Source of the DNA: Pseudomonas hefeiensis
GTDB lineage: Bacteria; Pseudomonadota; Gammaproteobacteria; Pseudomonadales; Pseudomonadaceae
NCBI RefSeq assembly: GCF_030687835.1
Contig: NZ_CP117449.1
Span: forward strand, 2,418,001-2,482,000
DNA length: 64,000 bases
Reading direction: 5' to 3'
A program made the position numbers and the translations under genes. Position 1 is the stretch's first letter, and the number at the start of each line of letters is the position of its first letter. Under the pieces are notes generated by a model. That model was not told where the DNA came from and made no database searches. It saw only the letters and a program-made list of their open reading frames with translations. Positions 36,985 through 64,000 of this stretch are shown piece after piece.

Positions 36985-37000
36985 AGGCATGGTGTTTGCT
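36985..37000 (+). promoter_or_regulatory. sigma-54 (-24/-12) promoter of the hydroxyquinol operon
   Basis: AGGCATGGTGTTTGCT has GG at 36986-36987 and GC at 36998-36999, exactly 10 bases between, with TTGCT perfect at -12. Transcription should start near 37011, leaving a ~100-base leader before the flavin hydroxylase. The divergent gene is a sigma-54 activator, which strengthens the call. Confidence 0.75.
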
Positions 37001-37114
37001 TTTGGCTAAGGGCTGCAGCACGAATGTCTTTACGGATTTCAGAAAAAGGGACAGGCCCCTGCAAACACCATAATTTTTGCCAGCAGCGCTGCTGATGGTT
37101 GGAGATCAATAATA

Positions 37115-38779
37115 ATGACAATCGAGATCTGTGCCGCGACGCCAAATTCAATGACCGTTGCTCCCCTTCACTACCATTGCGATGTCGCGATTGTCGGCGC
37201 CGGCCCGGTGGGCTCGCTTCTCGCCATTCTCCTCGCTCGACAGGGACATCGGGTGCATCTCGTCGAGCGATGGCCTCAGCTTTATGACCGGCCACGCGCA
37301 GTAACCTTTGATCATGAGATCGCGCGAATCCTTGCCATTCTGGGAATTGACTCAGACAACGATCCAGCGATCGAATATCACGACGACCTGTATTACTGGC
37401 GAAACGCTGCTGGCGAAGACTTGCAGCTGGTGGATTGGAAAAGTACGTCCGCTTCTGGCTGGCGAGTCCGTTATTGGTTCCACCAGCCGGCTCTGGAAAG
37501 GCGACTGCTCGACATCGTTCACGCGATGCCGCAGATTCATTTGCTGCGAGGTTGGGAAGCGAACGAACTGACTCAGGACGACGCGGGCATCTGGTTGAGC
37601 GGTAAAACAAATGATGAGGTCGCGCCCACACATCTGCGAGCTCGCTACGTTGTTGGCGCCGATGGAGCTAACAGCTTTGTGCGCGACAAGCTCGGTCTTA
37701 GCAGCACGGATCGTGGCTTTTTCTATGACTGGCTAATTCTCGACATGATTCCGAAGACGCCGCGTATTCATGATCCGGTGCATTGGCAGTTGTGCGATCC
37801 ACAGCGACCTACGACGATCGTGCCCGGCGGTCCTGGTCGCTTGCGTTGGGAGTTCATGGCCCTGCCAGGTGAAATAAGCACCGAATTGGCGGATCCGGCA
37901 AACGCTTGGCGCTTATTGGAACCTTGGGATGTAACGCCTGAAAACGCCACGCTCGAAAGAAGCGCTGTTTATCGGTTCCAGGCACGGCTGGCGAATAATT
38001 GGCGTAATGGACGTGGCGTTATTGCGGGGGATGCGGCTCATTTGATGCCTCCCTTTGCCGGCGAGGGTATGTGTGCCGGCTTAAGAGATGCTGTGGGGCT
38101 TAGTTGGAGGCTGGATGCAATTTTGCGCGGCATCATGCAAGACACTGTCCTGGATTCCTATACCTGCGAACGCAGGGAACACGCCAAGCATTACCTCGAG
38201 TTTTCGATGGCGCTGGGCCGAATCATCTGCATTACTGACGACCAGCAAGCGGCCATCCGAGATGAGCGGATGAAGCTCGAGCTTGAAGCCAGTGGCCGTA
38301 CTCCTCTTATAACCGACAAGGTCGCACTGGGCCCTGGGGCATGGTGTGCGCACGCTCCGCACTGCGGAGAGCTGTCGGTACAAGGCGTCGTACTGAGCAA
38401 TGGTCGAAAGGGCCGTTTTGACGAGATCGTGGGGCGCGGCTGGCTTCTGCTCTGTTGGGGCATGAATCCGGTGGATGCGCTCAACCCAGTTCACTTCCCA
38501 GTGCTTGAGGCGCTCCAGGCGCGACAGGTACACATTGGGGCGTCGGGTAGCAATAGTGAGGTCGTGGACGTTGATGGGGCCTATGCAGCCTGGTTCGAGT
38601 CATTGGGTGCGTGCTATCTGCTGATCCGCCCGGACTTTTATGTCGCTGCCTGTGCGGCCTCGCCAAATGCGCTACAAGAACAACTGGAACTTCTAGCTCA
38701 ACGTTTAGGCCTCCATCCGTCGCCCAAGGGGGCGGTGTTGGACCTGTTGCGGCCAACTTCTGAACCGAGGACCGTTTAA
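37115..38779 (+). CDS. FAD-dependent phenol hydroxylase (resorcinol/MhpA-like)
   Basis: A 554-residue single-component flavoprotein hydroxylase of the MhpA/PheA/TfdB group. It has GAGPVG at 28-33 (FAD), the DG motif VVGADGANSFVRDKLG, the GD motif VIAGDAAHLMPPFAGEGMCAG, and a C-terminal thioredoxin-like domain ending VAACAASPNALQEQLE. Its two downstream genes process hydroxyquinol, so the natural reaction is probably ring hydroxylation of resorcinol or hydroquinone (or a substituted form) to a 1,2,4-trihydroxybenzene. ATG 37115 follows GGAG. Activated, I infer, by the divergent sigma-54 regulator. Confidence 0.85.
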   Translation: MTIEICAATPNSMTVAPLHYHCDVAIVGAGPVGSLLAILLARQGHRVHLVERWPQLYDRPRAVTFDHEIARILAILGIDSDNDPAIEYHDDLYYWRNAAGEDLQLVDWKSTSASGWRVRYWFHQPALERRLLDIVHAMPQIHLLRGWEANELTQDDAGIWLSGKTNDEVAPTHLRARYVVGADGANSFVRDKLGLSSTDRGFFYDWLILDMIPKTPRIHDPVHWQLCDPQRPTTIVPGGPGRLRWEFMALPGEISTELADPANAWRLLEPWDVTPENATLERSAVYRFQARLANNWRNGRGVIAGDAAHLMPPFAGEGMCAGLRDAVGLSWRLDAILRGIMQDTVLDSYTCERREHAKHYLEFSMALGRIICITDDQQAAIRDERMKLELEASGRTPLITDKVALGPGAWCAHAPHCGELSVQGVVLSNGRKGRFDEIVGRGWLLLCWGMNPVDALNPVHFPVLEALQARQVHIGASGSNSEVVDVDGAYAAWFESLGACYLLIRPDFYVAACAASPNALQEQLELLAQRLGLHPSPKGAVLDLLRPTSEPRTV

Positions 38780-39846
38780 TGTACAACTTTACCTACCACT
38801 CTAATTCTGCCCGCGTGATATTCGGGATCGGCAAGTCTCATCTTTTGGCAGAAGAGATTCAGGCTTTAGGCTGTAGTCGCGCACTGCTGCTTTCAACTCC
38901 AGAGCAGCGAGCAGACGTTGAACGCCAGGAAACAGTGCTCGGCCCTCTGTGCGTAGGTATTTTTGCCAACGCTACCATGCATACACCAGTCGAGGTGACC
39001 GAGCAGGCGCTGGACTATTACCAGCGTATTGGTGCTGATTGCGTAGTGGCCTTGGGTGGAGGGTCGACGATCGGCCTCGGCAAGGCTATCGCCTACCGCA
39101 ATGATGCGCCGCAGCTGGTCATTCCGACCACCTATGCGGGGTCGGAGGTCACCCCGATTTTGGGGCAAACCGCTGACGGGATCAAAACGACTGTTTCATC
39201 CAATAAAATCCTTCCGGAAGTGGTGATTTATGACGCTCAGCTTACCCTGGGTTTGCCGGTAGCGATGAGCGTTACCAGCGCGCTGAACGCGATGGCGCAT
39301 GCAGTCGAAGGCTTGTACGCAAAGAACCGTAACCCGATCACATCGCTGATGGCGATAGACGGTATCCGAGCCCTTCATCGTGCTCTGCCACAGATCATTC
39401 TCCAGCCAGACAACCTTGAAGCGAGGCGTGAGGCGCAATACGGGGCTTGGTTGTGCGGAACTGTATTGGGCAGCGTAGGCATGGCGCTGCACCATAAGCT
39501 ATGCCATACCCTCGGTGGTAGTTTCGGTCTGCCACACGCCCAGACGCATGCAGTGATGTTGCCTCACACCGCTGCTTATAACCAAGACGCTGCTGCAGAA
39601 TGGCTGCGACCTCTCGGCGATGTGTTTGGAAGCGATCTGGGCGCAGGATTGTACGACTTCGCCAAGGATCTAAATGCTCCAATGGCTCTTCGAGACCTCG
39701 GTTTATCAGAGTCCGATCTGGATTGTGCTACGGAACTGGCACTTCGCAATCCCTACTGGAATCCAAGGCCGTTGGAGTCAGCGGCTATTCGTGATTTATT
39801 ACAGCGCGCCTGGTCCGGTGATCGCCCTGTCAACGGGGGGCTTTGA
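38779..39846 (+). CDS. maleylacetate reductase
   Basis: A 355-residue iron-type alcohol dehydrogenase of the maleylacetate reductase branch, reducing maleylacetate to 3-oxoadipate with NAD(P)H. Motifs: ALGGGSTIGLGKAIAY, PTTYAGSEVTPI, NAMAHAVEG and LHHKLCHTLGGSFGLPHAQTH with the His cluster. Its ATG overlaps the hydroxylase stop (TAATG), and the following dioxygenase overlaps its end, so the three genes are tightly coupled. The product feeds the beta-ketoadipate pathway, which is not in this window. Confidence 0.92.
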   Translation: MYNFTYHSNSARVIFGIGKSHLLAEEIQALGCSRALLLSTPEQRADVERQETVLGPLCVGIFANATMHTPVEVTEQALDYYQRIGADCVVALGGGSTIGLGKAIAYRNDAPQLVIPTTYAGSEVTPILGQTADGIKTTVSSNKILPEVVIYDAQLTLGLPVAMSVTSALNAMAHAVEGLYAKNRNPITSLMAIDGIRALHRALPQIILQPDNLEARREAQYGAWLCGTVLGSVGMALHHKLCHTLGGSFGLPHAQTHAVMLPHTAAYNQDAAAEWLRPLGDVFGSDLGAGLYDFAKDLNAPMALRDLGLSESDLDCATELALRNPYWNPRPLESAAIRDLLQRAWSGDRPVNGGL

Positions 39847-39848
39847 TC

Positions 39849-40697
39849 GTGGAGTATTTCAGCGAAGAGGCCTCGGCCCAAGTGGTAAATACCCGTATAG
39901 GCGATGGTACCGATGTGCGTTTTCGCACAATTATGACCTCGCTGGTTGAGCATCTGCACGCGTTCATCAAAGAGGTCGAAATAACCGATGCAGAGTGGGG
40001 GGAGGCTATCGACTTCCTGACTCGCACCGGTCAGATGTGCTCTGAGCATCGGCAAGAATTTATTCTGCTGAGCGATACCCTTGGAGTGTCAATGTTGGTG
40101 GATGCGATCAATCATCGACGTCCGTCTGGAGCGACTGAGAATACGGTGCTTGGGCCGTTTCACGTTTGCGATGCGCCCATACGCAGGATGGGCGAGACTA
40201 TAACCCTGGAGGGAAAAGGGGAGAGCTGCCTGTTCCAGGGACGAGTTGTGGACCTTCATGGCAATCCAATTGCTCAGGCGACGATTGACGTCTGGTCGGA
40301 CAATCCAGAGGGTTTCTATGACGTGCAACAGCCGGATCTGCAGCCTCGATGGAACAATCGGGGGCGCTTCATCACGGGTGATGATGGACGCTACTGCTTC
40401 ATCGGTATCAAGCCAGTCTCATACCCTATTCCCGATGATGGGCCGGTGGGGCAAATGCTCGCGAGGCTGGGAAGGCATCCTTGGCGGCCAGCGCATATGC
40501 ACTTTCTTGTGACTGCCCCAGGTTTGCGGCGTATCGTCACCCATACTTTCGTTGCTAATGATCCCTATCTGGAGTCCGACACTGTCTTCGGCGTGAAAAA
40601 TACGTTGGTACAGCACTTCAGGCGCTGCGCTGAAGCTAATACCGAATGGCAGGCAGAGTTCGATTTCGTCATGGTCCCCGAAGAAATCCTGTCTTAG
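39849..40697 (+). CDS. hydroxyquinol 1,2-dioxygenase (intradiol)
   Basis: A ~282-residue intradiol ring-cleavage enzyme. The four ferric ligands are in place: Tyr in PEGFYD (about residue 157 from GTG 39849), Tyr in VSYPIPDDG (192), and two His in RPAHMHF (216, 218). Pairing with maleylacetate reductase points to hydroxyquinol (1,2,4-benzenetriol) rather than catechol, giving maleylacetate. Start is uncertain: GTG 39849 has the better spacing to the GGGGGG at 39835-39840 than TTG 39843; either overlaps or nearly touches the gene before. Ends 14 bases before a hairpin. Confidence 0.9.
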   Translation: MEYFSEEASAQVVNTRIGDGTDVRFRTIMTSLVEHLHAFIKEVEITDAEWGEAIDFLTRTGQMCSEHRQEFILLSDTLGVSMLVDAINHRRPSGATENTVLGPFHVCDAPIRRMGETITLEGKGESCLFQGRVVDLHGNPIAQATIDVWSDNPEGFYDVQQPDLQPRWNNRGRFITGDDGRYCFIGIKPVSYPIPDDGPVGQMLARLGRHPWRPAHMHFLVTAPGLRRIVTHTFVANDPYLESDTVFGVKNTLVQHFRRCAEANTEWQAEFDFVMVPEEILS

Positions 40698-50969: not shown

Positions 50970-51003
50970 CGATTGGCTCCTCAAATCATCTGGAGTGAAT
51001 GCA

Positions 51004-52629
51004 ATGGCTTCATACAATATCAATAATAATGGCGCCTATAACCAGGCAATCGACTCTTTCAGAAAAACAGTCGGTTCAGAATGGGTGTTTACCAGCAAGG
51101 AGGATCTCTCCACCTACAGGGATCCCTACTCAGTTATCTGGGACGAGCCTGGTGAGGTGCTCCCTTTGGCGGCGGTGGCGCCAGGTAATGTCGAGCACGT
51201 CCAGGAAATTGTTCGTGCGGCCAACGAGCATGGTGTTGCGTTGTACACCATATCCACGGGTAAAAACCTTGGCTACGGTGGTGCATCTGCCAATCTCGCG
51301 GGTTGCGTTATTCTCGATCTGAAGAGGATGGATCGCATCATAGAAGTTGATGACACTCGCAACTTCTGCATCGTGGAGCCGGGTGTATCTTACTTCGACC
51401 TCTACCGTTACCTGGAGGCACGTGGATTACGGTTGATGCTGGACTTGCCCTCTAATGCCATGGGCGGCCCAATCGGTAATTCGCTAGATCATGGAGTTGG
51501 CTACTCCGCTGCCCCGTACCGTGACCATTTCGCCAATCATTGTGGAATGGAGGTCGTTCTGGCGAATGGCGAAATTCTTCGGACCGGCATGGGGGCGGTG
51601 CCGGGGGCAGAGACATGGGCAGAGTTCAAGTACGGATTTGGACCGAATGTCGATGGTTTATTTTCTCAGGCCAACTATGGTGTCGTTACCAAAATGGGTT
51701 TCTGGCTGATGCCAATGCCTGAACACTTCTTGTCGGCCAGCGTGTCGGTGGCACGATACGAAGACATCATTCCACTTGTACGCCACCTCAATTATCTTGA
51801 GGATTCCGGGCTGGTGGGATTCGTTCGTTACAGCAGCCCACTGGAGATTCCGCGCGTCCTCAAGTCTGCACCAGACCCGGCATTATTAAAGTTGATGGCC
51901 CAGCCTGGGGGAGGGGAGCCGCAAGCCTATGAGCATTATGCAAAAAGCCATAATCTGCCGTTCTGGACAACCACACTGAATTTCTATGGGCCGCAAACCA
52001 CCAACTGCGCCAATTGGGACTATGCCAGGCAGCGTCTGGCTTCAATACCTGGCGTAACGTTCCAAGAGACAGAGTCCATCAGCTTTCCGTTGAGTGCTGA
52101 AGCAAAAAATAACGCTAGAAGCCAAGTCAGCCTCGGTGTGCCGAACCTCACAGCCTTTGCGCTGGGGAGTCGGTCTGCGTTCAACGCTAATCCCTCGGAT
52201 GGCCACCTTTGGTTTTCGCCCGTCATTCCCCGCTCTGGAGAGGCTTTGCTCAAGGCTCATAAAGTATTCGGCCAAGCGTTCAAAGATCTTGGAATACCAT
52301 CGAGAATCGGCCCTTATAGCGGGCCTCGAACGTGGATGTATCGAGCGTTCGTTTTTGTCATGGACTTCAATACCTCTCGATTAGACAAGGTTCAAAATCA
52401 GCAGGTGAGGCAGGCGTTCGAACACCTTATCAAGGTTGGCGCAGAACATGGCTGGGCGGAATACAGGACGGCGCCAATCTTTCAAGATCTGGTTGCCAGC
52501 ACATACTCTTATAACAACAACGCCCTCCTGAGATTCAATGAGACCTTAAAGGATGCGCTTGATCCTAAAGGCATACTGTCCCCAGGGCGTGGTGGAATCT
52601 GGCCGAAGCACTTGCGTGGAGGTCACTGA
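51004..52629 (+). CDS. flavoprotein subunit of a 4-alkylphenol/eugenol hydroxylase
   Basis: A 541-residue flavoprotein of the vanillyl-alcohol oxidase/p-cresol methylhydroxylase family. The PCMH-type FAD domain reads HVQEIVRAANEHGVALYTISTGKNLGYGG, and the cap domain ends with FNETLKDALDPKGILSPGRGGIWP, the usual C-terminus. Coupling to a c-type cytochrome gene (1-base overlap) marks it as a dehydrogenase/hydroxylase like PchF or EhyB, not an oxidase. It oxidises the benzylic or allylic carbon of para-alkylphenols with water as oxygen source. The window also has ferulate genes, so eugenol or a 4-alkylguaiacol is attractive. ATG 51004 follows TGGAG. No signal of its own; I cannot point to the FAD-linking residue. 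Confidence 0.85.
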   Translation: MASYNINNNGAYNQAIDSFRKTVGSEWVFTSKEDLSTYRDPYSVIWDEPGEVLPLAAVAPGNVEHVQEIVRAANEHGVALYTISTGKNLGYGGASANLAGCVILDLKRMDRIIEVDDTRNFCIVEPGVSYFDLYRYLEARGLRLMLDLPSNAMGGPIGNSLDHGVGYSAAPYRDHFANHCGMEVVLANGEILRTGMGAVPGAETWAEFKYGFGPNVDGLFSQANYGVVTKMGFWLMPMPEHFLSASVSVARYEDIIPLVRHLNYLEDSGLVGFVRYSSPLEIPRVLKSAPDPALLKLMAQPGGGEPQAYEHYAKSHNLPFWTTTLNFYGPQTTNCANWDYARQRLASIPGVTFQETESISFPLSAEAKNNARSQVSLGVPNLTAFALGSRSAFNANPSDGHLWFSPVIPRSGEALLKAHKVFGQAFKDLGIPSRIGPYSGPRTWMYRAFVFVMDFNTSRLDKVQNQQVRQAFEHLIKVGAEHGWAEYRTAPIFQDLVASTYSYNNNALLRFNETLKDALDPKGILSPGRGGIWPKHLRGGH

Positions 52630-52958
52630 TGAACCGATATCATCCAATGATCCTGATGGTCTCGCTTCTGCCTTTGACTGTCCAGGCGGGGCCTGTTCTT
52701 GACGGTAAAGAGCTTTACGATCGCTGGTGTGCGTCATGCCATGCGCCTGGCCCCGGCCATCCAGGGACCCAGGCACTTAAAGCGCTGTATCAAGAGGCTT
52801 TGCCCGCGGCACTGGAACAGCGCTTGGACTTGGCGCCTGGCGTCATTGAGTATGTTGTGCGCAATGGTCGCTCGACGATGCCGTCATTCCGAAAAACTGA
52901 AATCAATGATGAACAACTCAATGCAATTGGCGCCTATCTCAGCAAACCTAAACCTTAG
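52629..52958 (+). CDS. c-type cytochrome subunit of the hydroxylase
   Basis: A 109-residue periplasmic cytochrome: Sec signal peptide to about residue 20, the haem-binding CASCH at 34-38, and Met84 in RSTMPSFRKT as likely sixth ligand. Size and order match PchC/EhyA-type subunits that take electrons from the flavin and pass them to azurin or the respiratory chain. Its ATG overlaps the flavoprotein stop by one base. The flavoprotein lacks a signal, so assembly and export of the complex need explanation; the Tat-borne first gene product may help (inference). Confidence 0.88.
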   Translation: MNRYHPMILMVSLLPLTVQAGPVLDGKELYDRWCASCHAPGPGHPGTQALKALYQEALPAALEQRLDLAPGVIEYVVRNGRSTMPSFRKTEINDEQLNAIGAYLSKPKP

Positions 52959-53128: not shown

Positions 53129-53904
53129 TCAGGCCTCGAACGTGCGATAGAACTTCGAGATCGCCTTGGTGCTGACTTTCCAGTCTTCTGGGTCATTGGC
53201 CGCGTGGGCGTGGGGGGATGCCGCACCATCAATTGCGGGTTTGGCGTTCGGGTTGTTGTCTAGGGCGGCCTGGGATTTGGTCTTCAGGTCGAGGACCTCT
53301 TCGTCGTCCTTCATTGGCGGCGTGACAACGACGTTGCAGCCGTTGGCCACGGAAAAGTTGTGCGAGTCCGGGTCGCGAGCGATGAACCGCATCGGCGGAT
53401 TAGGCTTCTGGATCGGCTTCGGCACACCGGTGGAGGTGGGGAGTTTCCAGATATCGCCATCGTGAACGTAGTCGTCTTGCCATAGGGCACGCACCACCGA
53501 CACCATCTCGCGCAGCGCATGACTGCCAGGGGGAGGCGGGCATGCCGTAAGTCATGCGGTCGAACTCCATCTGATAGGTGCATGGGCCAGACCGACTTCC
53601 ATGCGGCCGTTACTGATAACGTCCAGCAATTCGCATTGGTCCGCGACCCACAACGGATGCCAGAACGGTGCAATGATGGTGCCTGCGCCGAGGTGAATGA
53701 TGGTGGTCTTGGCAGCCAGGTAGGCCAGGAGCGACATCGCGCTCGGGAAGATGTCGGGTTCCACGGCCTCGTGTGCGCCGATCCAGACGGTACTGAAACC
53801 GTCGGCTTCGACCATCAGGTCAGTTCGATCAAGTCTTCGGACAGCCGACGGTGGCTGACACTTTCATCCCCGCGTTCCATGTGCGCGAACAATGAGAGTT
53901 TCAT
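53129..53904 (-). pseudogene. luciferase-like flavin monooxygenase, frameshifted and truncated
   Basis: Minus-strand pieces in changing frames: MKLSLFAHMERGDESVSHRR, then LMVEADGFSTVWIGAHEAVEP and GAGTIIAPFWHPLWVADQ, then TYQMEFDRMTYGMPA in a third frame, then SHALREMVSVVRALWQDDY to ISKFYRTFEA. At least three single-base shifts are needed, near 53,830, 53,590 and 53,545. Intact LLM-class oxidoreductases of this type have about 340 residues, and here the C-terminal part after FYRTF is missing. The gene is dead. Confidence 0.78.
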
Positions 53905-54568: not shown

Positions 54569-55510
54569 TTATGGTGCAGAAACGGGGGACGGTACCCGGA
54601 CTGGTGCATTAATGTCGCCTTTTTCCAACTCGCCGGGGAACACGGAATGCAGCCACCGACGCAGCCGGACGATGGCTTTATCGTTCCATTTTCGAGTCGG
54701 TGCGATGAAGTAATACCCGCCTAGACGAATCGTCATCGGCAATACATCGATCAGCTCGCCAGCGGCAATTTTTTCGTCGGCCAGCAGCTCGCTGACCAGG
54801 GCCACACCCTGGCCCATACAAGCTGCTTCGAGCGTAAGGTGACCGTGCCACAGCCGAGGTCCGCGTAATCTGGGAATATCTGTAACACCGGCGATGCTAA
54901 ACCATTGCGACCAGCGCTGGGTATTGCGCTCATGGATCAACGGCAAACCCAGTAAGTCTTCGGCGCAGGTCACTTCGGCGAAGCGGTTGCAAAATGCGGG
55001 GCTGGCCACTGCCCGGATCAAGGGCCGGGCGAACAGCTCAGCGCACAATTCCTCGCCGAGATTGAGCTCCTCAAGGTAGACAATCTCGGCATCCGCTTCA
55101 TTGCGACTGAAGTCGGGACGCGTGCTGGTCGGTTCGAGTGTCAGCTCACGGCCGTTGAGTGCTTCTTCCAGCTCACCCAGTCTCCCCAGCAACCGCCTGG
55201 AAGCCAGGCCCGCCATGCAGCAGACGTGCAGCGCATCTTCGCCTTGACGCAGGTCACTGCTGGCATCGGCGATGATTTCCAGCGCTCGTCGCAGCTGCGC
55301 CGCGTAGCGTTGGCCTTCACGCGTCATCTCAAGTCCACGACCTGATTTCTTGACCAGCTTTGTGCCCACCGCGGCTTCCAGATTCTGGATATGCCGGGAG
55401 ATCACGGTATGTGAAACTGCTAGTTCTTCGGCGCACTGGCGCACGCTTCCACAACGACTGAACCCTTCGAAGGCGCGTACAGCGAGAAGTGGCGGAAGGC
55501 GTCGATTCAT
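54569..55510 (-). CDS. LysR family regulator (GcvA-like)
   Basis: A 313-residue regulator with the N-terminus PPLLAVRAFEGFSRCGSVRQCAEELAVSHTVISRHIQNLE, the GcvA/AmpR-type HTH with longer spacing. It reads away from the acyl-CoA catabolic operon over a 159-base spacer holding nested palindromes, so it is the probable regulator of that operon and of the thioesterase behind it. Effector unknown. Confidence 0.86.
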   Translation of the reverse strand: MNRRLPPLLAVRAFEGFSRCGSVRQCAEELAVSHTVISRHIQNLEAAVGTKLVKKSGRGLEMTREGQRYAAQLRRALEIIADASSDLRQGEDALHVCCMAGLASRRLLGRLGELEEALNGRELTLEPTSTRPDFSRNEADAEIVYLEELNLGEELCAELFARPLIRAVASPAFCNRFAEVTCAEDLLGLPLIHERNTQRWSQWFSIAGVTDIPRLRGPRLWHGHLTLEAACMGQGVALVSELLADEKIAAGELIDVLPMTIRLGGYYFIAPTRKWNDKAIVRLRRWLHSVFPGELEKGDINAPVRVPSPVSAP

Positions 55511-55558: not shown

Positions 55559-55592
55559 ACGCACACGTGCATCGAATGCACCAGTTGTGCGT
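55559..55592. promoter_or_regulatory. nested inverted repeats, candidate LysR operator
   Basis: Outer arms ACGCACA (55559-55565) and TGTGCGT (55586-55592) enclose TGCAT-CGA-ATGCA (55568-55580). The centres differ by only 1.5 bases. It lies between the LysR gene and the thiolase-like gene, 78 bases before its start codon. Confidence 0.55.
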
Positions 55593-55669
55593 GTTCTAAC
55601 TGCTTGTTCGCACGGCGCTCGATGGCGGAATTTGTGGGGCATGGCTTTCGATCTTTTCAGGAGTGTGCC

Positions 55670-56836
55670 TTGAACGTTTCCGAACGCGCCGTCATTGTCG
55701 GCGCCTATGAGTCGCCCAGGAGGGATGCGCCCAATGTGCATCCTTTCGCGATCCAGGTGGAATGCATTCGGGCAGCGCTGGCCCAAGCCGGGTTGACACT
55801 CGGGGACGTAGACGGCTTGTGTGTGGCCTCCGGCGACTGGGCTGAGGGGGGCGGTGTCAACAGCGTCACAGAAATGGCCGAGTACCTGGGCATTGAGCCG
55901 CGCTGGTTCGACAGCACCGACGTCGGGGGTTGTTCCTATCTGGTGCATGCCGCACACGCGGCGGTGGCGATTGCTGCCGGGCTGGCGGATGTCGTGGTGA
56001 TCAGTTACGCCGCTTCACCGCGCTGGTGGCCATTGAAGACTCCGTCGTTCGACCCGTTCGTTCTGCCGGCAGGGCCGGGTCAATTCGAATTGCCCTTCGC
56101 ACCGACGCTCATTTCTACGTATGCCATGTACGCCCAGCGTCATATGCACCTCTATGGCACCACAGCAGAGCAGCTAGCTCAGGTAGCGGTGACATTCCGG
56201 CAGCACGCAGCTGAAAATCCACATGCTTTTCTGGGCGGTAAATCAATTACGGTCGACGACGTGCTCAATTCTTCGATGATAGCGTCACCTTTGCACCGGC
56301 TCGATTGCTGCGTCGTCACGGACGGCGGCGGTGCTATCGTGATGACCAGTCGAGAACGAGCCTTTGATTGCCGGACCCGGCCGGTCTTCGTCAGCGGTTT
56401 TGGCATGGCCACACAACGCACGCAAATCAGCCAGATTTCCCGCGAACTCATCACGCCTGCCGCTCGCACCGGTCCCCGCGCTTTTGAAATGGCCGGGTTG
56501 TCGCCCTGCGATGTCGACGTGGCGCAGCTTTACGATGCCTTCACCATCACGCCGATGCTGGCGCTCGAGGACCTCGGATTCTGCCCTCGCGGCGAAAGCG
56601 GCCGGTTCGTCGCGGACGGCCATTTGAGCATTGGTGGCTCTGTGCCGTGCAACACCGATGGTGGCGGACTGGCGTCCAACCATCCGGGCAAGCGCGGCCT
56701 GCTGGCGTTGATTGAAGGCGTCCGGCAGTTACGCGGTGAAGGGCCTGGGGTGCAGGTGGAAGACGCGGAAGTCGCGTTGATTCATGGGTTGGGCGGAACG
56801 TTCTGTGCCGCTGCCACTGTCATTCTGACCGTCTGA
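55670..56836 (+). CDS. thiolase-like enzyme (SCP-x/lipid-transfer type, possible aldolase)
   Basis: A 388-residue thiolase-superfamily protein. TTG 55670 is the best start: AGGAG at 55659-55663 is 6 bases ahead, and family members begin near ERAVIVGAYESP. Features: GGCSYLVHAAHAAVAIAAGLADVVVISYA, VAQLYDAFTITPMLALEDLGF and the late CNTDGGGLASNHPGKRGLLAL with HGLGGTFCAA. Such proteins act with a DUF35 partner, which is the very next gene. In steroid side-chain breakdown the Ltp2-type pair is a retro-aldolase that works after a MaoC hydratase, also encoded here. A real thiolase role remains possible. First gene of the operon. Confidence 0.8.
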   Translation: MNVSERAVIVGAYESPRRDAPNVHPFAIQVECIRAALAQAGLTLGDVDGLCVASGDWAEGGGVNSVTEMAEYLGIEPRWFDSTDVGGCSYLVHAAHAAVAIAAGLADVVVISYAASPRWWPLKTPSFDPFVLPAGPGQFELPFAPTLISTYAMYAQRHMHLYGTTAEQLAQVAVTFRQHAAENPHAFLGGKSITVDDVLNSSMIASPLHRLDCCVVTDGGGAIVMTSRERAFDCRTRPVFVSGFGMATQRTQISQISRELITPAARTGPRAFEMAGLSPCDVDVAQLYDAFTITPMLALEDLGFCPRGESGRFVADGHLSIGGSVPCNTDGGGLASNHPGKRGLLALIEGVRQLRGEGPGVQVEDAEVALIHGLGGTFCAAATVILTV

Positions 56837-56847
56837 GGGGCCGCTAT

Positions 56848-57249
56848 ATGACCACTTCCAGTCTAGTTGTCACTGACGCCATGTCGGCTCCCTGGTGGGC
56901 CGCTCTTGGGGAAGGGCGTTTGCTCGTTCAACGTAACCCTGCGTCGGGCACATGGCAGTGGTACCCAAGGGACCACTGCCTGGACGACCTGTCGATAGAA
57001 CCTGAATGGGTGCAAGTCAGCGGGCACGGCACGCTGTTTACCTACTCGGTTATCCATCGAGGGCATTCACGCCTGGCGGCGCCTTACATATGCGCCCTCG
57101 TCGAGCTTGCAGAAGGCCCGCTGATGTTGTCGCAACTTCACGGCATAGCGTTCGACGAGATCACCATCGGCATGGACGTGTCGGTTGCGTTCATTGAAGT
57201 GGATTCATCCACCTTGTTGCCGGTTTTTCGCCCAAGGAGCCACCCATGA
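56848..57249 (+). CDS. DUF35 OB-fold partner protein without zinc-ribbon cysteines
   Basis: A 133-residue protein of the DUF35 family: a short N-terminal helix (PWWAALGEGRLLVQRN), a ribbon-like WQWYPRDHC segment, then an OB-fold (GTLFTYSVIHRGHSRLAAPYICALVELAEGPLMLSQLHG). The usual CxxC pair is replaced by NPAS, and only one Cys remains, so the zinc ribbon is probably lost. These proteins bind thiolase-like aldolases and acyl-CoA. It starts 11 bases after the thiolase-like gene and overlaps the MaoC gene by 4 bases, which supports a shared complex. Confidence 0.8.
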   Translation: MTTSSLVVTDAMSAPWWAALGEGRLLVQRNPASGTWQWYPRDHCLDDLSIEPEWVQVSGHGTLFTYSVIHRGHSRLAAPYICALVELAEGPLMLSQLHGIAFDEITIGMDVSVAFIEVDSSTLLPVFRPRSHP

Positions 57250-57701
57250 GTACCACCCTCTACTTCGACGACCTGATAGCCACGCAGTCGTTGGTGTCGT
57301 CGCGGATCACGCTGACAGAAACCCATATCGTTCTGTTCGCGGGATTGACCGGGGATTTTAACCCGCTTCATATGGACGAGGAATCTGCGCGGCAAGGCAC
57401 CTTTGGGCGGCGAATTGCCCATGGCATGTTGGCTCACTCCATCAGCACCGGCCTGCGTTCGAGTATTGATGACTGGGCAATCATCGCTTTCCTTGAGACC
57501 CATCGCCGATTCGTCGCACCGGTTTTCGCGGGTGACACGCTGCATTACGTGGCTGAAATCGAAGAGTTGCGCAAAAGCCAATCAAACCCCGCGCGCGGCA
57601 TCGCCAGAGTCAAGCTGCGCCTGCTCAACCAGGGCGCTGAAGTGGTGCAGGACGGTGAAGACGTATTCGCAGTCGCCTGCCGCCCAGGGGGCGAGTCATG
57701 A
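57246..57701 (+). CDS. MaoC-family enoyl-CoA hydratase
   Basis: A 151-residue hotdog hydratase. The R-hydratase motif lies in FAGLTGDFNPLHMDEESARQ with the catalytic Asp and His, followed by FGRRIAHGMLAHSIS. It hydrates trans-2-enoyl-CoA to the 3-hydroxyacyl-CoA, the substrate needed for either oxidation by the next gene's SDR or aldol cleavage by the thiolase-like enzyme. It overlaps its neighbours by 4 bases on both sides. Confidence 0.87.
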   Translation: MSTTLYFDDLIATQSLVSSRITLTETHIVLFAGLTGDFNPLHMDEESARQGTFGRRIAHGMLAHSISTGLRSSIDDWAIIAFLETHRRFVAPVFAGDTLHYVAEIEELRKSQSNPARGIARVKLRLLNQGAEVVQDGEDVFAVACRPGGES

Positions 57702-58447
57702 GCCCACGTCTGCAAGGTCATGTTGCGTTGATCACCGGTGGCGCCGGCGGCATTGGCTCGGCCATTTGTCAGCGCCTGGCTCAAGAGGGTGCCGCGGTCA
57801 TTATTGCCGACCTCGGTCCCGGAGTCGCCGAGCTGGCTCACTCCCTGACCACTCGGGGATATCAGGCGATAGCGGTCAATCTCGACGTTTCCAGCCGTGA
57901 CAGTTGGACCGCGGTCATGGCTGACCTGCCGCCGGCCTTCAAAGCCGTCGACATTCTGGTAAACGTGGCAGGCATCGTGCGTGATAGAACGTTGATAAAG
58001 ATGACCGATGAAGAATGGGATGCGGTGATCGATGTCAACCTGCGTGGCTCGTGGATGGGGTGCCAATTTGGGTTGGCGGCGATGGTCGGGCACGGTTGGG
58101 GCAGGATCATCAATATCGCTTCCACAGCGATCCTCGGCACTTACGGTCAGGCGAATTATTCATCGGCCAAGGCCGGCGTGGTGGGGTTGACTCACACCGT
58201 CGCTCTGGAGGCCGCGCGCCATGGTGTATTGGTCAACGCTGTAGCGCCTGGGATCGTCGAGACATCTATTCTGGCGAGTGTGCCAGAGGAGGTCAGGGCC
58301 CGCTGGATCGCAAAAATGCCATTGGGCCGGCCTGCACAACCTGCAGAAATCGCCTCCGTGGTTGCGTTTCTTGCCTCCGACGACGCCAGTTACATGAGCG
58401 GGCAGGTACTCATTGTCGATGGCGGCGCAACGACGGGCGATTACTGA
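57698..58447 (+). CDS. SDR 3-hydroxyacyl-CoA/3-oxoacyl reductase-like
   Basis: A 249-residue classical SDR: TGGAGGIGS at 13-21, NVAG near 89, Ser142 (NIASTA), Tyr154 and Lys158 in YSSAK, and a FabG-like C-terminus VLIVDGGATTGDY. Intact catalytic set. As part of the hydratase operon it probably oxidises or reduces a hydroxyacyl-CoA. Its ATG overlaps the MaoC stop by 4 bases, and the ABC transporter genes follow after 61 bases. Confidence 0.86.
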   Translation: MSPRLQGHVALITGGAGGIGSAICQRLAQEGAAVIIADLGPGVAELAHSLTTRGYQAIAVNLDVSSRDSWTAVMADLPPAFKAVDILVNVAGIVRDRTLIKMTDEEWDAVIDVNLRGSWMGCQFGLAAMVGHGWGRIINIASTAILGTYGQANYSSAKAGVVGLTHTVALEAARHGVLVNAVAPGIVETSILASVPEEVRARWIAKMPLGRPAQPAEIASVVAFLASDDASYMSGQVLIVDGGATTGDY

Positions 58448-58508
58448 ACCACCGAAACACGGCTATCCACTCACAACAATTAAGCAGCAACAGCGAAGGG
58501 GCATTGAT

Positions 58509-59546
58509 ATGGTCGAATTTACACGGCGCAGATTTTTGCAAGCGAGCGGTATCGCGGGGGCAGGTTTAGCCGCAGGATTGATACGCCCTTCGTTCGCGGC
58601 CGACGAATCGCTGTACGCGGCTGCGCAGAAAGAGGGCGCACTCAATCTTTACTGGGGCTCCTACGAACAACAGACCATTGAAGCCATCCGCGACGCATTT
58701 ACCCGGCGCTACACAGGGATCAAGGTCAACCTGCTGCGTCAGGCATCGCAAACCATCTACACCCGCTTGCGTCTTGAGCTGCAGAATAATGCGCCCAACT
58801 GCGACTCGCTGGGCAGTACCAACATCCTTCACTACTTGGAATTGAAAAAGATCGGCGCGTTAATGCCTTACAAACCGGCAGGTACCGAGTTTCTGCCGCA
58901 GGAATTCCAGGGGCTGGACAAGGACGAAACCTATCAGGTCGGTGCGATCAGCCTGACCAGCCTGAATTTCCAGTCGGATAAAGTCACATCAGCACCCACC
59001 TCATGGGAGGCTGCTCTGGATGCTCAATGGGCCAACAAGCTGACGGTCGGCAGCCCGTCCTTCTCCGGGGATGTCGCTTCCTGGGTGGTAGCGATCCGTA
59101 AAAAGTACGGCGACCATTACCTCAAGGAACTGGCGAAGTTGAAGCCCAAGGTCGGCCAGTCGAACGTGGATACTGTCACCGACATTCTGTCAGGCGAGCG
59201 CCTTGTGGGTCTGGGTGCGCCATTCAGTTATTCGCTCGCACAGAAGGCGGCTGGCAACCCGATAAACGTAGTTACCCCGACTGACGGCACCATCCTCAAC
59301 CTGGGCTTGAGTGCCATTCCGCTGAAAGCCCCGCACCCGAATGCGGCGAAGCTGTTCTCCGGTTTTTTGTATGACCCTGAAGTCTCGCAGATCCTGGCGG
59401 CAAACTTTTGGCCGACATTGCGCACTGACGTTCCATGGGCCGAGGGTCGCAGCCTGTCCCAGTTAATCTGGTACCGCAATCCACCTGAAGACCTGGCGGC
59501 CGAAGTCGCTGAAGGTATCGCCAAATGGAAAGAAATCATCGGTTGA
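58509..59546 (+). CDS. ABC importer substrate-binding protein, Tat-exported
   Basis: A 345-residue binding protein of the ferric/2-aminoethylphosphonate type (SBP family 1). The signal MVEFTRRRFLQASGIAGAG has a twin-arginine motif, so it is probably folded before export. The mature part opens with LYAAAQKEGALNLYWGSYEQQTIEAIRDAF, normal for this family. Iron ligands cannot be confirmed by eye, and in this operon an organic substrate is more likely than iron. ATG 58509 follows AAGGGGC. Its partner permease follows after 57 bases. Confidence 0.85.
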   Translation: MVEFTRRRFLQASGIAGAGLAAGLIRPSFAADESLYAAAQKEGALNLYWGSYEQQTIEAIRDAFTRRYTGIKVNLLRQASQTIYTRLRLELQNNAPNCDSLGSTNILHYLELKKIGALMPYKPAGTEFLPQEFQGLDKDETYQVGAISLTSLNFQSDKVTSAPTSWEAALDAQWANKLTVGSPSFSGDVASWVVAIRKKYGDHYLKELAKLKPKVGQSNVDTVTDILSGERLVGLGAPFSYSLAQKAAGNPINVVTPTDGTILNLGLSAIPLKAPHPNAAKLFSGFLYDPEVSQILAANFWPTLRTDVPWAEGRSLSQLIWYRNPPEDLAAEVAEGIAKWKEIIG

Positions 59547-59603
59547 ACCAGCACCCGCCAGGCTGAACGGTCTGGCGACGGTAGATTCAGGAGTGACCCC
59601 TTT

Positions 59604-61361
59604 ATGGGCGTTTTTGCGATAGGCACTTCCTCGGCGAGCGTTGGCGCTGAGCTTCGACGACACCGACCCTGGGTGCGCTGGACCGTGGTGGCCGTGGTTC
59701 TGGCGGCGCTGTTCTTATTGGTTGCGCAACCGGTCGGCTGGATTCTGTTCAATAGCGTGCACGATGACGCTACGCAACAATGGACGCTGAACAATTACGT
59801 GCGCCTGGTGACTGCCAAAGGCATGCTCCAGCCAATAACCAATTCGATTATTTTGGCGTTTTCGACCGCAGCGATCTCAACGCTGTTGGGTGTTCCACTG
59901 GCCTGGCTGGTGGCGCGTACCAATATGCCCGGCCGGGGGCTCATCAGGATGCTCACGCTGGGGGCATTCGTGACCCCCTCGTTCATCGGTGCACTGGGGT
60001 GGATTTTGCTCGCGGCACCTAACGCCGGTTGGCTGAATACGCTCTATCGACAAATCTCGGGCGGCGATTTGCCCCTGTTCAACATCTACTCCATGAGCGG
60101 CGCAATCTTCGTCTGCGCCATCTATACCGTTCCGTATACCTTCACCATCGTCGCAAGTGCACTTGATGAAATGGCGGTCGAACTGGAAGACGCGGCGACG
60201 ACCCTCGGCGCCAGCGTTTTACGCACAATGTTCAGCGTGACCATCCCGATGGTGATGCCTTCGGTTATCGTCGGTTTCATTCTGTCCTTCATTCAGGGGA
60301 TGACCCTGTTCGGTGTTCCAGCCTTTTTGCTCACACCTTCAGGGACATCGGTCGTCACCACTAAACTGGCCGAGTTCTATCAGTTGTTCCCGCCTGAGCT
60401 ATACATGGCGGCGGCGTATTGCATGCCGCTTCTGTTGCTCACTGGTGGGTTGTTCTGGGTACGCAAAAAAATGCTTGGCCGCAGACGCTTTGTGATGATC
60501 GGTGGCAAGAGCCGGGCGGGGCGCAGCATTGATCTGAAAGGCTGGCGCTGGGCCGGGTTGTTGTTCGCGCTGATTGTCCCGGTGACGGCGGTGATCCTGC
60601 CTTACTTCGCCTTGATCGTCGTTTCTCTCTCCAAAGCCTGGGGCCAGGGACCATCGTTGAGCAACCTGACGTTTCACTGGTATCGATGGGCGATTCTGGA
60701 GAACGCTGAAACTCAGGCGGCGATTATCAACTCATTGGCCTACGCCGCCATCGGCGCCAGTCTTTGCGTCCTGCTCGGAACCCTCATTGCTTACATCGTC
60801 GAACGCCGCCTGGTCGCGGGCACGACCATTATCGCAGCGTTGACCAATCTGCCGATCATCATCCCTGGGATTGTGTTGTCGGTGGGCTTCTTCGCCGCCT
60901 ATACCCAGCCACCCTTGAGCCTATACGGGACCTCGGCGATCATCATTGCGGCGTTCGTCGCGACGTTCCTGCCGATCGCTTATTCGCATGGCGAGGCAAT
61001 GCTCAAGGGCATCAGCCCGGACCTGGAGCGGGTTGCACGAATTCTGGGCGCCAGTGAGTCGAAGACATTCGCCAGCATCACGGCTCCGCTGATGAGGTCC
61101 GGGCTGATTTCAGGTTGGCTGTTGGTGTTTATCCCCGTGATGCGGGAGCTCTCAGTCGCGGTGTTCCTGATAACGCCCAGCACTAACGTCATGACCACTT
61201 TGATTTACAACTACAAGGATGGCGGCAATTACGAGGCGGTGGCTGCCGCCAGCGTATTGCTTCTGGTTGTCACCATGATGGTGGTGGCGATCGCTCAAAT
61301 GCTCAGCGTGAAGCTGGCGAAACATAAGCGTGCCAGTGTTGAACCCGGAGTCGCCCAATGA
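59604..61361 (+). CDS. ABC importer permease, two fused domains
   Basis: A 585-residue inner-membrane permease with about 12 helices, built of two homologous halves as in FbpB-type importers. The EAA loops that contact the ATPase read AVELEDAATTLGASVLRTMFSVTIP in the first half and GISPDLERVARILGASESKTFASITAP in the second. AGGAG precedes ATG 59604. The stop overlaps the ATPase start by 4 bases. Confidence 0.88.
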   Translation: MGVFAIGTSSASVGAELRRHRPWVRWTVVAVVLAALFLLVAQPVGWILFNSVHDDATQQWTLNNYVRLVTAKGMLQPITNSIILAFSTAAISTLLGVPLAWLVARTNMPGRGLIRMLTLGAFVTPSFIGALGWILLAAPNAGWLNTLYRQISGGDLPLFNIYSMSGAIFVCAIYTVPYTFTIVASALDEMAVELEDAATTLGASVLRTMFSVTIPMVMPSVIVGFILSFIQGMTLFGVPAFLLTPSGTSVVTTKLAEFYQLFPPELYMAAAYCMPLLLLTGGLFWVRKKMLGRRRFVMIGGKSRAGRSIDLKGWRWAGLLFALIVPVTAVILPYFALIVVSLSKAWGQGPSLSNLTFHWYRWAILENAETQAAIINSLAYAAIGASLCVLLGTLIAYIVERRLVAGTTIIAALTNLPIIIPGIVLSVGFFAAYTQPPLSLYGTSAIIIAAFVATFLPIAYSHGEAMLKGISPDLERVARILGASESKTFASITAPLMRSGLISGWLLVFIPVMRELSVAVFLITPSTNVMTTLIYNYKDGGNYEAVAAASVLLLVVTMMVVAIAQMLSVKLAKHKRASVEPGVAQ

Positions 61362-62437
61362 GCCAGATCCAGATCCGTGATTTGCAAAAAAGCTTCGGCC
61401 CGTTCCAGGCGCTGAAAGGTATCGACCTGACCGTGGAGGATGGAACGCTGCTGGCGTTGCTTGGCCCATCCGGCTGCGGAAAATCGACCACACTGCAGTT
61501 GCTGGCCGGTTTCGAAACCCCCTCTGCAGGCGAAATCTGCGTTAATGACCGGGTTATTTCCAGTTCGCAAGGCGTGGTCCCTCCAGAGCGCCGGGATATT
61601 TCGCTGGTCTTTCAAAACTACGCAGTGTGGCCGCACAAAACCGTTGCCGAGAACGTGGCGTTTGGCTTGCAGGTACGCAAGGTGCCGCGCGCAGCCCTGC
61701 AAGAAAAGCTCACCAAAACCCTGAAGACCGTACACCTCGACCATCTGGCTGACCGCTACCCCTCCGAGTTGTCGGGTGGGCAACAGCAACGTGTGGCGCT
61801 GGCGCGGGCGCTTATTGTCGAGCCAAGCATTCTATTGCTCGACGAACCGCTGTCGAACCTTGATGCGCACCTTCGAGAAGAAATGCGCTTCGAAATTCGT
61901 CGAGTACATGACTTGCTTGGACTGACGACAGTCTACGTCACCCACGATCAGGGTGAGGCCTTGGTGACGGCCAACCAAGTGGCGGTCATGAATGGAGGCA
62001 GCGTGCAACAGCTGGGTTCGCCGAGGGAAATTTTCGAGCTGCCGGCCAACGCGTTTGTCGCGGCGTTCATCGGCAGCAACAACGTGATCAAAGGCGTGTT
62101 GACGGGGCCCGGCACATTGCGCTTCGGCGAACAGTCATTGATGGGGGTTGACCGCAGTGGGGCCGGTCCTGGTGCAGGGATCACCCTGTGCATCCGTCCC
62201 TCCAAAGTTCGCATCGTCGGACCCAATCAAGGTGTGACCAATGTGCTGCCCGGCACGGTGCTGCGCACGGCCTACCTCGGCGAGTATTGCGACGTGTTGG
62301 TGGACATTGGTGCTGGCCTTTCGGTGCGCGCCTTTACCCCTCCAACTAAGGACTATCGGGTGGGGCAGGTGTTGATGCTGCATTTACCGGAACAGGATTG
62401 TCATCTGCTGCAATCCGGAGAACGAGTTAACAGTTAA
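61358..62437 (+). CDS. ABC importer ATPase
   Basis: A 359-residue ATPase. Walker A GPSGCGKST is at 36-44, Q-loop FQNYAVWP near 86-93, signature LSGGQQQR at 139-146, Walker B LLLDEPLSNLD at 160-170, and H-loop VTHDQGEAL. A C-terminal TOBE domain (RPSKVRIVG) completes the FbpC/PotA-like architecture. With the two genes before it, it makes a full importer for the operon's substrate. Confidence 0.93.
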   Translation: MSQIQIRDLQKSFGPFQALKGIDLTVEDGTLLALLGPSGCGKSTTLQLLAGFETPSAGEICVNDRVISSSQGVVPPERRDISLVFQNYAVWPHKTVAENVAFGLQVRKVPRAALQEKLTKTLKTVHLDHLADRYPSELSGGQQQRVALARALIVEPSILLLDEPLSNLDAHLREEMRFEIRRVHDLLGLTTVYVTHDQGEALVTANQVAVMNGGSVQQLGSPREIFELPANAFVAAFIGSNNVIKGVLTGPGTLRFGEQSLMGVDRSGAGPGAGITLCIRPSKVRIVGPNQGVTNVLPGTVLRTAYLGEYCDVLVDIGAGLSVRAFTPPTKDYRVGQVLMLHLPEQDCHLLQSGERVNS

Positions 62438-62501
62438 ACCAGCAGAGCGGCAGCGACCTCCCTGCTGTAGCACTCAATAAATGGCCTGACAGGATTCAAC
62501 T

Positions 62502-63299
62502 ATGAAAATCGAAGAGAGCGGCGAAATTGTTCGGTTACGACGTGGGAGCGTTGAATGGATCATTTTCAATCGACCTCACGCTTTGAACGCGATGTCGCCA
62601 GCCATGGAAGAAACGTTGACGCACATCTTCCAAGAGCTTGCACACGATGCCTCGGTCAAGGCACTGGTGCTGACCGGCTCAACCGGAAAAAGGCCCTCGT
62701 TCATGGCAGGGGCAGATTTCGGCACACTGGAGGATGCGAAGACGACAGCCGAGTTTCTTGAACTCGAAGCTCACAGTGAAACGCTCATCCGGTCGCTCGA
62801 AGCGCTGACGTTCCCCACCATTGCCGCTATTGCGGGGCCGTGCGTGGGCGGGGGCGCGCTGATTGCCGCGGCGTGTGATGTGCGCCTCATCAGCCGGTCG
62901 GCGAGGTATGGATTCCCCATTGCCCGGACCGTTGGCAATTGCCTCAGTGCCCTGAACTATCAGCGTCTTGTCGATCTGTTCGGCACGGCGGTGACCAAAG
63001 AAATGGTGTTCAGCGCTCGCTTGCTGGATGCCCCGGCTTTGATGGCAAGCGGCGCGTTCCGGGAGCTGGTCGACGAAGACGCGTTGGAAGCTGCCGCCGA
63101 ACGGGTCGCAGAACATCTGGTGCAGCTTGCGCCACTGACGTTATGGGCGACCAAAACCATCTTGCGCCGACTTCGCGACGTAAAACTGGCAAGCGTCGAC
63201 GACGAGGATGTGTTGTTGCATTGCTATCACTCAGCTGATTTTCGTGAAGGCGTCGCAGCGTTTCAGCAAAAACGTTCCCCTCTATGGAAAGGGCTTTAG
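62502..63299 (+). CDS. enoyl-CoA hydratase/isomerase family protein
   Basis: A 265-residue crotonase. The oxyanion-hole segments read FMAGADFGTLED and AGPCVGGGALIAAACD. The second active-site Glu of hydratases is not obvious in the FPIARTVGNC stretch, so it may be an isomerase or act on an unusual substrate. It begins 64 bases after the ATPase gene. With MaoC it gives the operon two possible hydration or isomerisation steps. Confidence 0.83.
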   Translation: MKIEESGEIVRLRRGSVEWIIFNRPHALNAMSPAMEETLTHIFQELAHDASVKALVLTGSTGKRPSFMAGADFGTLEDAKTTAEFLELEAHSETLIRSLEALTFPTIAAIAGPCVGGGALIAAACDVRLISRSARYGFPIARTVGNCLSALNYQRLVDLFGTAVTKEMVFSARLLDAPALMASGAFRELVDEDALEAAAERVAEHLVQLAPLTLWATKTILRRLRDVKLASVDDEDVLLHCYHSADFREGVAAFQQKRSPLWKGL

Positions 63300-63441
63300 A
63301 ACGACCTTGCGGTGTCTTGAAGCACCGGTATTATCGCGTTACCTAGAGTAGAAAGTGCTGACGTCTGGATGAGCAGCGGCTTTCTCTAATTTAACTCCTC
63401 ATTATTCGCTGGCAACTTTAATTGCCGGGCAGGGTGAAGTC

Positions 63442-64000
63442 ATGTCGATTGAATCTGAAATACCCAATAAAGGGCCTCTTAGCGGCATCCGTGTCATCGA
63501 TGCCACACATATGTTGGCAGGGCCTTATTCAACTTGGCTGCTCGCGATGCTCGGGGCTGACGTCATCAAGATTGAACGGCCGCAAGGCGGGGATTACACC
63601 CGCAGCGTTGCGCCGTTCAAAGGCAAGAAAAGTATCTACTTCAATAGCGTCAACCGAAACAAACGCAGCGTCGCGCTGAACCTGAAAGAGGAAGAGGGCA
63701 AAGCTGTTCTTCGCCAGTTGCTGACAACTGCCGACGTGTTCATTGAAAACAACCGGGCGGGGGTGATGGAACGATTGGGGTTTGGTTATGAAGCCGTGAG
63801 TGAGCTGAACCCGAAACTGATTTACGCGGCCATTTCAGGTTTTGGGCAGGATGGCCCTTATAAACATTTGCCATCTTTTGACGTGGTCGCACAGGCGATG
63901 TCCGGCATGATGAGCATTACCGGCGAAGAGTTCGGACCACCTGCACGTGTGGGCATTTCGCTGGGCGATATCGGATCTGGCTTATTCACCACCGTCGGGG
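63442..64000 (+). CDS. CaiB/BaiF-type CoA transferase (family III), 3' end outside the window
   Basis: The first 186 residues of a class III CoA transferase: GPLSGIRVIDATHMLAGPYSTWLLAMLGADVIKIE, the CoA-binding NRNKRSVALNL, and the catalytic Asp176 in SLGDIGSG. ATG 63442 follows AGGGTGAAG. It would move CoA from a donor such as succinyl-CoA to the imported acid, giving the operon its activation step without ATP. Cut off by the window edge while still open. Confidence 0.87.
   Translation, partial: MSIESEIPNKGPLSGIRVIDATHMLAGPYSTWLLAMLGADVIKIERPQGGDYTRSVAPFKGKKSIYFNSVNRNKRSVALNLKEEEGKAVLRQLLTTADVFIENNRAGVMERLGFGYEAVSELNPKLIYAAISGFGQDGPYKHLPSFDVVAQAMSGMMSITGEEFGPPARVGISLGDIGSGLFTTVG

Follow-up and report, generated by a model that had tools for sequence, protein, structure and literature searches.

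Comparison of the thiolase-like protein with known systems

The bbs operon encodes a DUF35-thiolase, a short-chain dehydrogenase/reductase (SDR), a class III coenzyme A (CoA) transferase, and a hydratase; an acyl-CoA dehydrogenase is present in it and an importer is absent. A thiolase fold with a DUF35 partner, a Tyr base, and Gly at the position of the thiolase Cys are the features of Ltp2-ChsH2 (PDB 6OK1) and of Sal-Shy, the proteobacterial bile-acid aldolase and hydratase (PDB 9MYR; PMC12329534, PMC11321319). According to the Shy paper, the MaoC domain of Shy is nearest to PaaZ, and DUF35, the Sal-binding part, precedes MaoC in one chain encoded downstream of sal. The window analyzed here is a stretch of 64,000 nucleotides of Pseudomonas hefeiensis (contig NZ_CP117449.1, positions 2,418,001 to 2,482,000). 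Nine genes on one strand run from position 55670 to ~64647, beyond the window end, in the order thiolase-like protein (THL), DUF35 partner, MaoC hydratase, SDR, the solute-binding protein (SBP), permease (PERM), and ATPase of an ATP-binding cassette (ABC) importer, crotonase (ECH), and class III CoA transferase (CoAT), with the genes of a LysR-type regulator and a thioesterase (TE) divergent from them. Literature searches found no publication on this cassette. Import, CoA loading, hydration, and retro-aldol cleavage of an organic acid is the likeliest reading of the whole, and one that we hold with middling confidence.

We compared the active site of THL with those of its relatives (residue numbers are those of the 388-aa protein). 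Gly87 aligned to the nucleophilic Cys of the true thiolase 7YVY, and Tyr288, within YDAF, aligned to the His of the HD motif, the His/Asn-type position of (H/N)xAF; Gly and Tyr occupied these positions in 71 of 71 aligned sequences. The His of the GHP motif was kept, as NHPG in 29 of 29 orthologues and as His in 66 of the 71 sequences of the wider alignment (Gln in 5). The second thiolase Cys, for which we assume CxG as the comparison motif, was missing, with HGLGG in all 29 orthologues. A normal thiolase was ruled out because Gly replaces the nucleophilic Cys and Tyr replaces the HD His, as in Sal and Ltp2. In databases, members of this branch often carry the name acetyl-CoA acetyltransferase, and others are called "hypothetical" or "thiolase C-terminal domain"; the first of these labels is unlikely because the nucleophilic Cys is missing.

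In the tree, THL grouped with Sal, Ltp2, and 4U4E, apart from 7YVY. This grouping and the absent Cys support the retro-aldol idea of an earlier reading of the window made from its letters alone (the sequence-only reading); THL did not fall among true thiolases, and the four thiolase active-site residues were not all kept. THL and 4U4E formed a separate branch outside the Sal and Ltp2 branches (support 0.881). 4U4E, an uncharacterized protein of Sphaerobacter thermophilus with VGGSS, YDSF, and THPG, was the closest solved sequence to THL (E = 1.3e-88). The acids of the known aldolases were not kept: Ala was found at the position of Sal Cys304 and His at that of Ltp2 Tyr344, where most THL-type sequences have the thiolase His. 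From these alignments, we propose Tyr288 as the base and His338 as the acid, with Gly87 replacing the nucleophilic Cys.

The cassette is like Sal-Shy in its thiolase fold with a DUF35 partner, Gly in place of the Cys, YDxx motif with the Tyr base, gene order (aldolase-DUF35-MaoC), and single MaoC domain with the catalytic dyad. It differs from Sal in having YDAF rather than YDCY and His at the position of Sal Gln352, and from Shy in that DUF35 and MaoC are separate genes and that the zinc ligands are not conserved in DUF35, whose zinc-ribbon region has no Cys shared across 29 rows. An SDR, an ABC importer, and a CoA transferase are added, and the tree branch is a different one. In the Sal-type loci (YDCY) of the genus, DUF35 and then MaoC matches followed the Sal-like gene in 5 of 5 examined. 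Ltp2 has YDHF and the acid Tyr344, whereas THL has YDAF and His, and the DUF35 partner lacks the fused MaoC domain of ChsH2. The kinship of THL and DUF35 with Ltp2-ChsH2, on which the sequence-only reading had built its analogy, was upheld, but Sal-Shy is the closer comparison. A further Pseudomonas subgroup of THL-like proteins (loci L026-L028 in our numbering) shares 37-39% identity and has VGGGS, YDAF, NHSG, and VQA(A/S)GL; L026 contains one stop or unreadable codon within the matched stretch.

Linkage and distribution of the cassette

Contigs of named genomes were scanned, and the best 80 of 404 confirmed THL relatives were taken. Among the matches listed, 25 records had 73-95% THL identity (4 Pseudomonas, 3 Bosea or Boseaceae, 3 Ancylobacter, 14 Azospirillum, and 1 filed as Roseomonas), and the genes for LysR, THL, DUF35, MaoC, SDR, SBP, PERM, ATPase, ECH, and CoAT were all present in each of them. 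The same ten genes were found in 3 of 3 further same-genus loci, and the cassette proteins were full-length in all 28 loci as judged by extracted length (L035 was counted as a duplicate of L044). In Pseudomonas, CoAT follows the other genes on their strand; in Bosea and Ancylobacter, it is also downstream but inverted, and in L051-L065 it lies next to LysR and is divergent, so gene content is constant despite the changing layout. The copy of Azospirillum brasilense Sp7 is carried on a plasmid. The divergence of each gene tracked that of THL (r = 0.957-0.985, a descriptive value because the rows are related).

Next, co-occurrence was counted in 298 Pseudomonas genomes. The THL orthologue (at least 90% identity; next best, 49%), SBP, and CoAT co-occurred in the same four genomes, including that of P. 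hefeiensis. In a wider sample of the phylum, a THL match at E = 1e-100 was obtained in 1 of 398 genomes, the P. hefeiensis genome alone. Eleven flank proteins of the window were not found around seven other Pseudomonas loci, save for a LysR match of 28% in two. These results show that the cassette is more than a chance neighborhood and is one linked unit, as the sequence-only reading had supposed for the importer, CoA transferase, hydratase, and THL/DUF35 pair. Its Pseudomonas setting proved too narrow: the cassette also occurs in Bosea, Ancylobacter, and Azospirillum and is not Pseudomonas-specific. Its genes are inherited jointly by scattered soil bacteria, and we see an even chance that it is a horizontally moving, self-contained catabolic cassette. 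Its GC content was 0.54-0.61 per kb, which is not clearly foreign. A tRNA-borne island was rejected, as ARAGORN found no tRNA within the window.

The next relatives among the matches listed were 55 loci with 46-50% THL identity, mostly consisting of the catalytic part alone. Seven were dropped because of short downstream sequence, and the 48 counted contained DUF35 (48), MaoC (40), SDR (37), CoAT (4), ATPase (3), ECH (3), SBP (1), and PERM (1), with neither LysR nor TE in any. Five same-genus loci with 43-48% THL identity had DUF35 (four), ECH (three), SDR (two), MaoC (one), and LysR (one) and no importer, CoAT, or TE, indicating that neither SDR nor MaoC is a constant partner. The gap between 73% and 50% identity is confined to the best 80 of 404 matches; a protein search showed that THL relatives of 55-72% exist, Rhodococcus included.

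Variants were found next to and in place of parts of the cassette. A gene for malonyl-CoA synthase (MatB) adjoined it in 8 of the 25 records (two tested, with 847 and 845 bits against a cut-off of 558 and a match to PDB 4FUQ at 4e-213). MatB was missing from the fetched flanks in the other 17, and a search of the P. hefeiensis genome found none (best match, 33% identity). The plasmid relatives L123-L127 encode a THL of 52-57% identity with DUF35, MaoC, and SDR. In the annotated L124, L126, and L127 (Aureimonas, Agrobacterium, and Sinorhizobium chiapasense), an AMP ligase, a biotin carboxylase, and a carboxyltransferase replace CoAT and the crotonase; the one carboxyltransferase tested (L126) was propionyl-CoA-carboxylase-like. 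The importer of these three records is distant (SBP, 18-20%; PERM, 22-34% identity). L125 is unannotated. In Rhizobium gallicum, the core is accompanied by an ADP-type ligase, two acyl-CoA dehydrogenases, a CoA transferase, an electron-transfer flavoprotein, and an amino-acid-type importer. For plasmid relatives of 47-51%, TRAP or tricarboxylate-transporter genes were nearby in three of four records viewed.

This gene content suggests that importers and activation sets can be swapped around a common core. A broader proposal, which we offer tentatively and consider somewhat improbable, is that THL-DUF35-MaoC-SDR is a widespread, undescribed core for C-C cleavage with a plug-in role. It would have a third aldolase active-site design, with a Tyr base, a thiolase-derived His acid in most members, and no nucleophilic Cys. 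The core would be joined to various importers and to one of several CoA-activation sets (CoA transferase; AMP ligase and biotin carboxylase; or ADP ligase and acyl-CoA dehydrogenases), and from each it would receive the CoA ester of an alpha,beta-unsaturated diacid, e.g., substituted glutaconyl-CoA. Plasmids L123, L125, L126, and L127 were typed as conjugative and L124 as non-mobilizable.

Proposed reactions and alternative readings

The partner enzymes were then inspected. MaoC contains GDFNPxHMD with the Asp/His dyad in 29 of 29 rows, as R-specific hydratases require; its best NCBIfam model was PaaZ, far under the cut-off (54 of 563 bits). In SDRs, an Asp after strand 2 marks the NAD type, and the cassette SDR, which has this Asp, is of that type by this rule. 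The crotonase is a PRK06144 member (301.5 bits against a cut-off of 272). It has no Glu at the positions aligned to 5Z7R and 5ZAI residues that we take to be the catalytic glutamates, and it is unlikely to be the cassette hydratase because both hydratase glutamates are replaced. The crotonase named by the sequence-only reading is thus present in the operon, but without these residues. The nearest solved relatives of CoAT are SUGCT and YfdE (296 and 302 bits), yet CoAT lies below the cut-offs of all seven NCBIfam types matched, including the succinate/glutarate type (335 of 750 bits) and the oxalate type (330 of 522 bits). A literature search on the SUGCT structure yielded nothing.

From the observed genes, linkage, residues, and cis element, we infer the following reactions and substrate. 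LysR would sense an inducer and activate the operon from the palindrome region upstream of THL. The organic acid taken up by the ABC importer would be small and anionic; because the cassette has no acyl-CoA dehydrogenase, it is probably a dicarboxylate with a double bond or a hydroxyl group already in place. The class III CoA transferase would load the acid with CoA from another thioester, and MaoC would hydrate the double bond to give a 3-hydroxyacyl-CoA. Retro-aldol cleavage of this intermediate by the THL/DUF35 complex would then yield acetyl-CoA (or propionyl-CoA) together with an aldehyde, a ketone, or a keto acid. The SDR, to which the sequence-only reading gave no step, belongs to the conserved set and may interconvert the carbonyl product or act on the hydroxyl before cleavage, and the crotonase and thioesterase may handle side or end products.

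The sequence-only reading had favored a branched or aromatic acid as the substrate. Weak support for an aromatic acid comes from the aromatic genes elsewhere in the window and the VanA-type Rieske genes near L042 and L043 (seven flank proteins picked by eye). A dicarboxylate would fit better, given the type of CoA transferase and the neighboring malonyl-CoA synthase in 8 of 25 records.

The main rival, a serious contender but clearly less probable, is a complete R-specific round of beta-oxidation as in bbs, in which CoAT loads a diacid, MaoC hydrates, SDR oxidizes the 3-hydroxyl, and the resulting 3-ketoacyl-CoA is split by THL-DUF35 in an unusual retro-Claisen reaction that needs no Cys. The cassette resembles the bbs set in gene content, its SDR is of the NAD type, and an SDR stands beside THL-DUF35 in 37 of the 48 wider homologues and in L123-L127. 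The curated BbsA and BbsB models do match the cassette, but weakly and far under their cut-offs (25 of 250 and 148 of 750 bits). The replacement of Cys by Gly and of the HD His by Tyr throughout the 71 sequences also speaks against this rival, since the aligned part of BbsB keeps the HD and GHP motifs (the Cys region lies outside the alignment), as does the lack of an acyl-CoA dehydrogenase in the cassette.

We regard the synthetic direction as unlikely. In this case, THL-DUF35 would join a CoA thioester and a carbonyl compound, SDR would reduce, and MaoC would dehydrate, with malonyl-CoA supplied by MatB in some strains. The MatB gene in 8 of 25 records, the carboxyltransferase of the three annotated plasmid relatives (propionyl-CoA-carboxylase-like in L126), and the precedent of PhlABC, a DUF35-thiolase complex that forms C-C bonds by acylation according to PMC12329534, are consistent with synthesis. 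However, an importer and a CoA transferase occur in each of the 25 records, and MatB is missing from the fetched flanks of 17 and was not found in the P. hefeiensis genome.

Degradation of steroid or bile-acid side chains, as by Sal-Shy or Ltp2-ChsH2, is disfavored and highly improbable. Although THL and DUF35 are akin to these systems in sequence and fold and the gene order agrees, THL is on neither the Sal nor the Ltp2 branch, and OB_ChsH2_C had a single match in the P. hefeiensis genome at E = 1e-3, inside the cassette, whereas both Shy and ChsH2 types would be expected in a bile-acid degrader. Least probable of all, and largely refuted, is an iron transporter placed by chance beside an unrelated acyl-CoA operon: the PDB relatives of SBP include entries with Fe3+ or iron periplasmic protein as their name, but the matched set also contains pyridoxal-phosphate and putrescine binders, no Fur-like site above shuffle level was found in the intergenic gaps, and the linkage (25 of 25 records) and phyletic pattern (the same 4 of 298 genomes) led us to reject it.

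If the THL branch consists of aldolases, as in the retro-aldol reading, DUF35-thiolase aldolases are far from confined to steroids, and the role of a transportable acid cassette in bacteria associated with plants and soil can be put to the test.

Cassette layout, regulatory region, and surroundings

The features are listed in Table 1. All protein families named by the sequence-only reading were present according to Pfam and NCBIfam (class III CoA transferase by NCBIfam only), and the start that it placed at 55670 was confirmed, with AGGAG upstream. The 4-base overlaps that it described on one strand were confirmed at three junctions only (DUF35/MaoC, MaoC/SDR, and PERM/ATPase); the remaining intra-operon gaps are 11, 61, 57, 64, and 142 bp.

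Table 1. Features of the cassette and its upstream region (window coordinates)
Feature	Position	Strand	Evidence
4HBT-type thioesterase (TE), 155 aa	54071..54538	-	Pfam 4HBT_2, 3.6e-24; tblastn match in 22/25 records, 40-84% identity
LysR-type regulator, 313 aa, GcvA-like	54569..55510	-	Pfam/NCBIfam; 25/25 records
GTGC-N7-GCAC palindrome, probable operator	55567..55581		26/29 upstream regions
Conserved block TTCTAACTGCTTGTT, probable promoter or activator element	55594..55608	+	at most 2 mismatches in 14/14 non-Azospirillum sequences
THL, 388 aa, TTG start; Gly at thiolase Cys, YDAF, NHPG, HGLGG	55670..56836	+	PF22691
DUF35 partner, 133 aa, OB fold	56848..57249	+	zf-ChsH2 and OB_ChsH2_C; ChsH2-DUF35 (6ok1_B), E 2.2e-18
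MaoC hydratase, 151 aa, Asp/His dyad kept	57246..57701	+	Pfam
SDR, 249 aa, Ser-Tyr-Lys kept, Asp after strand 2	57698..58447	+	Pfam, NCBIfam
ABC solute-binding protein (SBP), 345 aa, twin-arginine signal TRRRFLQ	58509..59546	+	SBP_bac_6/8
ABC permease (PERM), 585 aa, fused	59604..61361	+	two BPD_transp_1 stretches
ABC ATPase with TOBE domain, 359 aa	61358..62437	+	Pfam
Crotonase-fold protein (ECH), PRK06144 type, 265 aa, both hydratase glutamates replaced	62502..63299	+	NCBIfam
Class III CoA transferase (CoAT), 401 aa	63442..64000, truncated by window end, stop ~64647	+	NCBIfam

The GTGC-N7-GCAC palindrome was found upstream of THL in 26 of 29 sequences (one duplicate pair), and its background in the same loci was 0.034 per 450 bp. 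The three sequences without the exact palindrome (L049, L050, and L066) have, by eye, a one-base variant. L051-L065 contain two copies, 35-45 bp apart, in 15 of 15, and among the 46-50% homologues, the palindrome was present in 4 of 51. It includes T-N11-A, which we take to be the LysR pattern, and is a probable LysR operator as predicted from these sequences. A second block, TTC[TA]AACTGCTTGT, followed the palindrome in 14 of 14 sequences outside L051-L065 (one duplicate pair) and had a single match in the P. hefeiensis genome at no more than one mismatch. Within three substitutions, this block had no match in any of the 15 loci L051-L065; ten aligned members of this group have a related stretch, TTCT-CTTGTGAC, past the second palindrome. 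Consensus promoters and terminators appeared at shuffle level only. The best Fur-box match, 12 of 19 positions, was in the LysR-THL region (shuffle mean, 10.2; maximum, 14).

Downstream of CoAT are genes that we presume to be pqi-like; no match to these was obtained in the retrieved flanks of the other Pseudomonas loci. A minus-strand fragment at 53129-53506 had no Pfam match at E = 1e-8 and may be a gene remnant, presumably a piece of a luciferase-type monooxygenase. At 24512-32006, consecutive genes encode a crotonase, an aldehyde dehydrogenase, an AMP ligase, a thiolase, and an acyl-CoA dehydrogenase (only the crotonase was scanned), an arrangement that we take to resemble a ferulate-to-vanillin cluster. 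At 35241-40697, an XylR-type sigma-54 activator (XylR_N, V4R) is divergent from a FAD monooxygenase, an iron-type alcohol dehydrogenase, and an intradiol dioxygenase, presumably resembling a hydroxyquinol or resorcinol pathway. A FAD_binding_4 oxidase followed by a small cytochrome c at 50995-52958 recalls what we assume to be the two-subunit eugenol or cresol hydroxylases.

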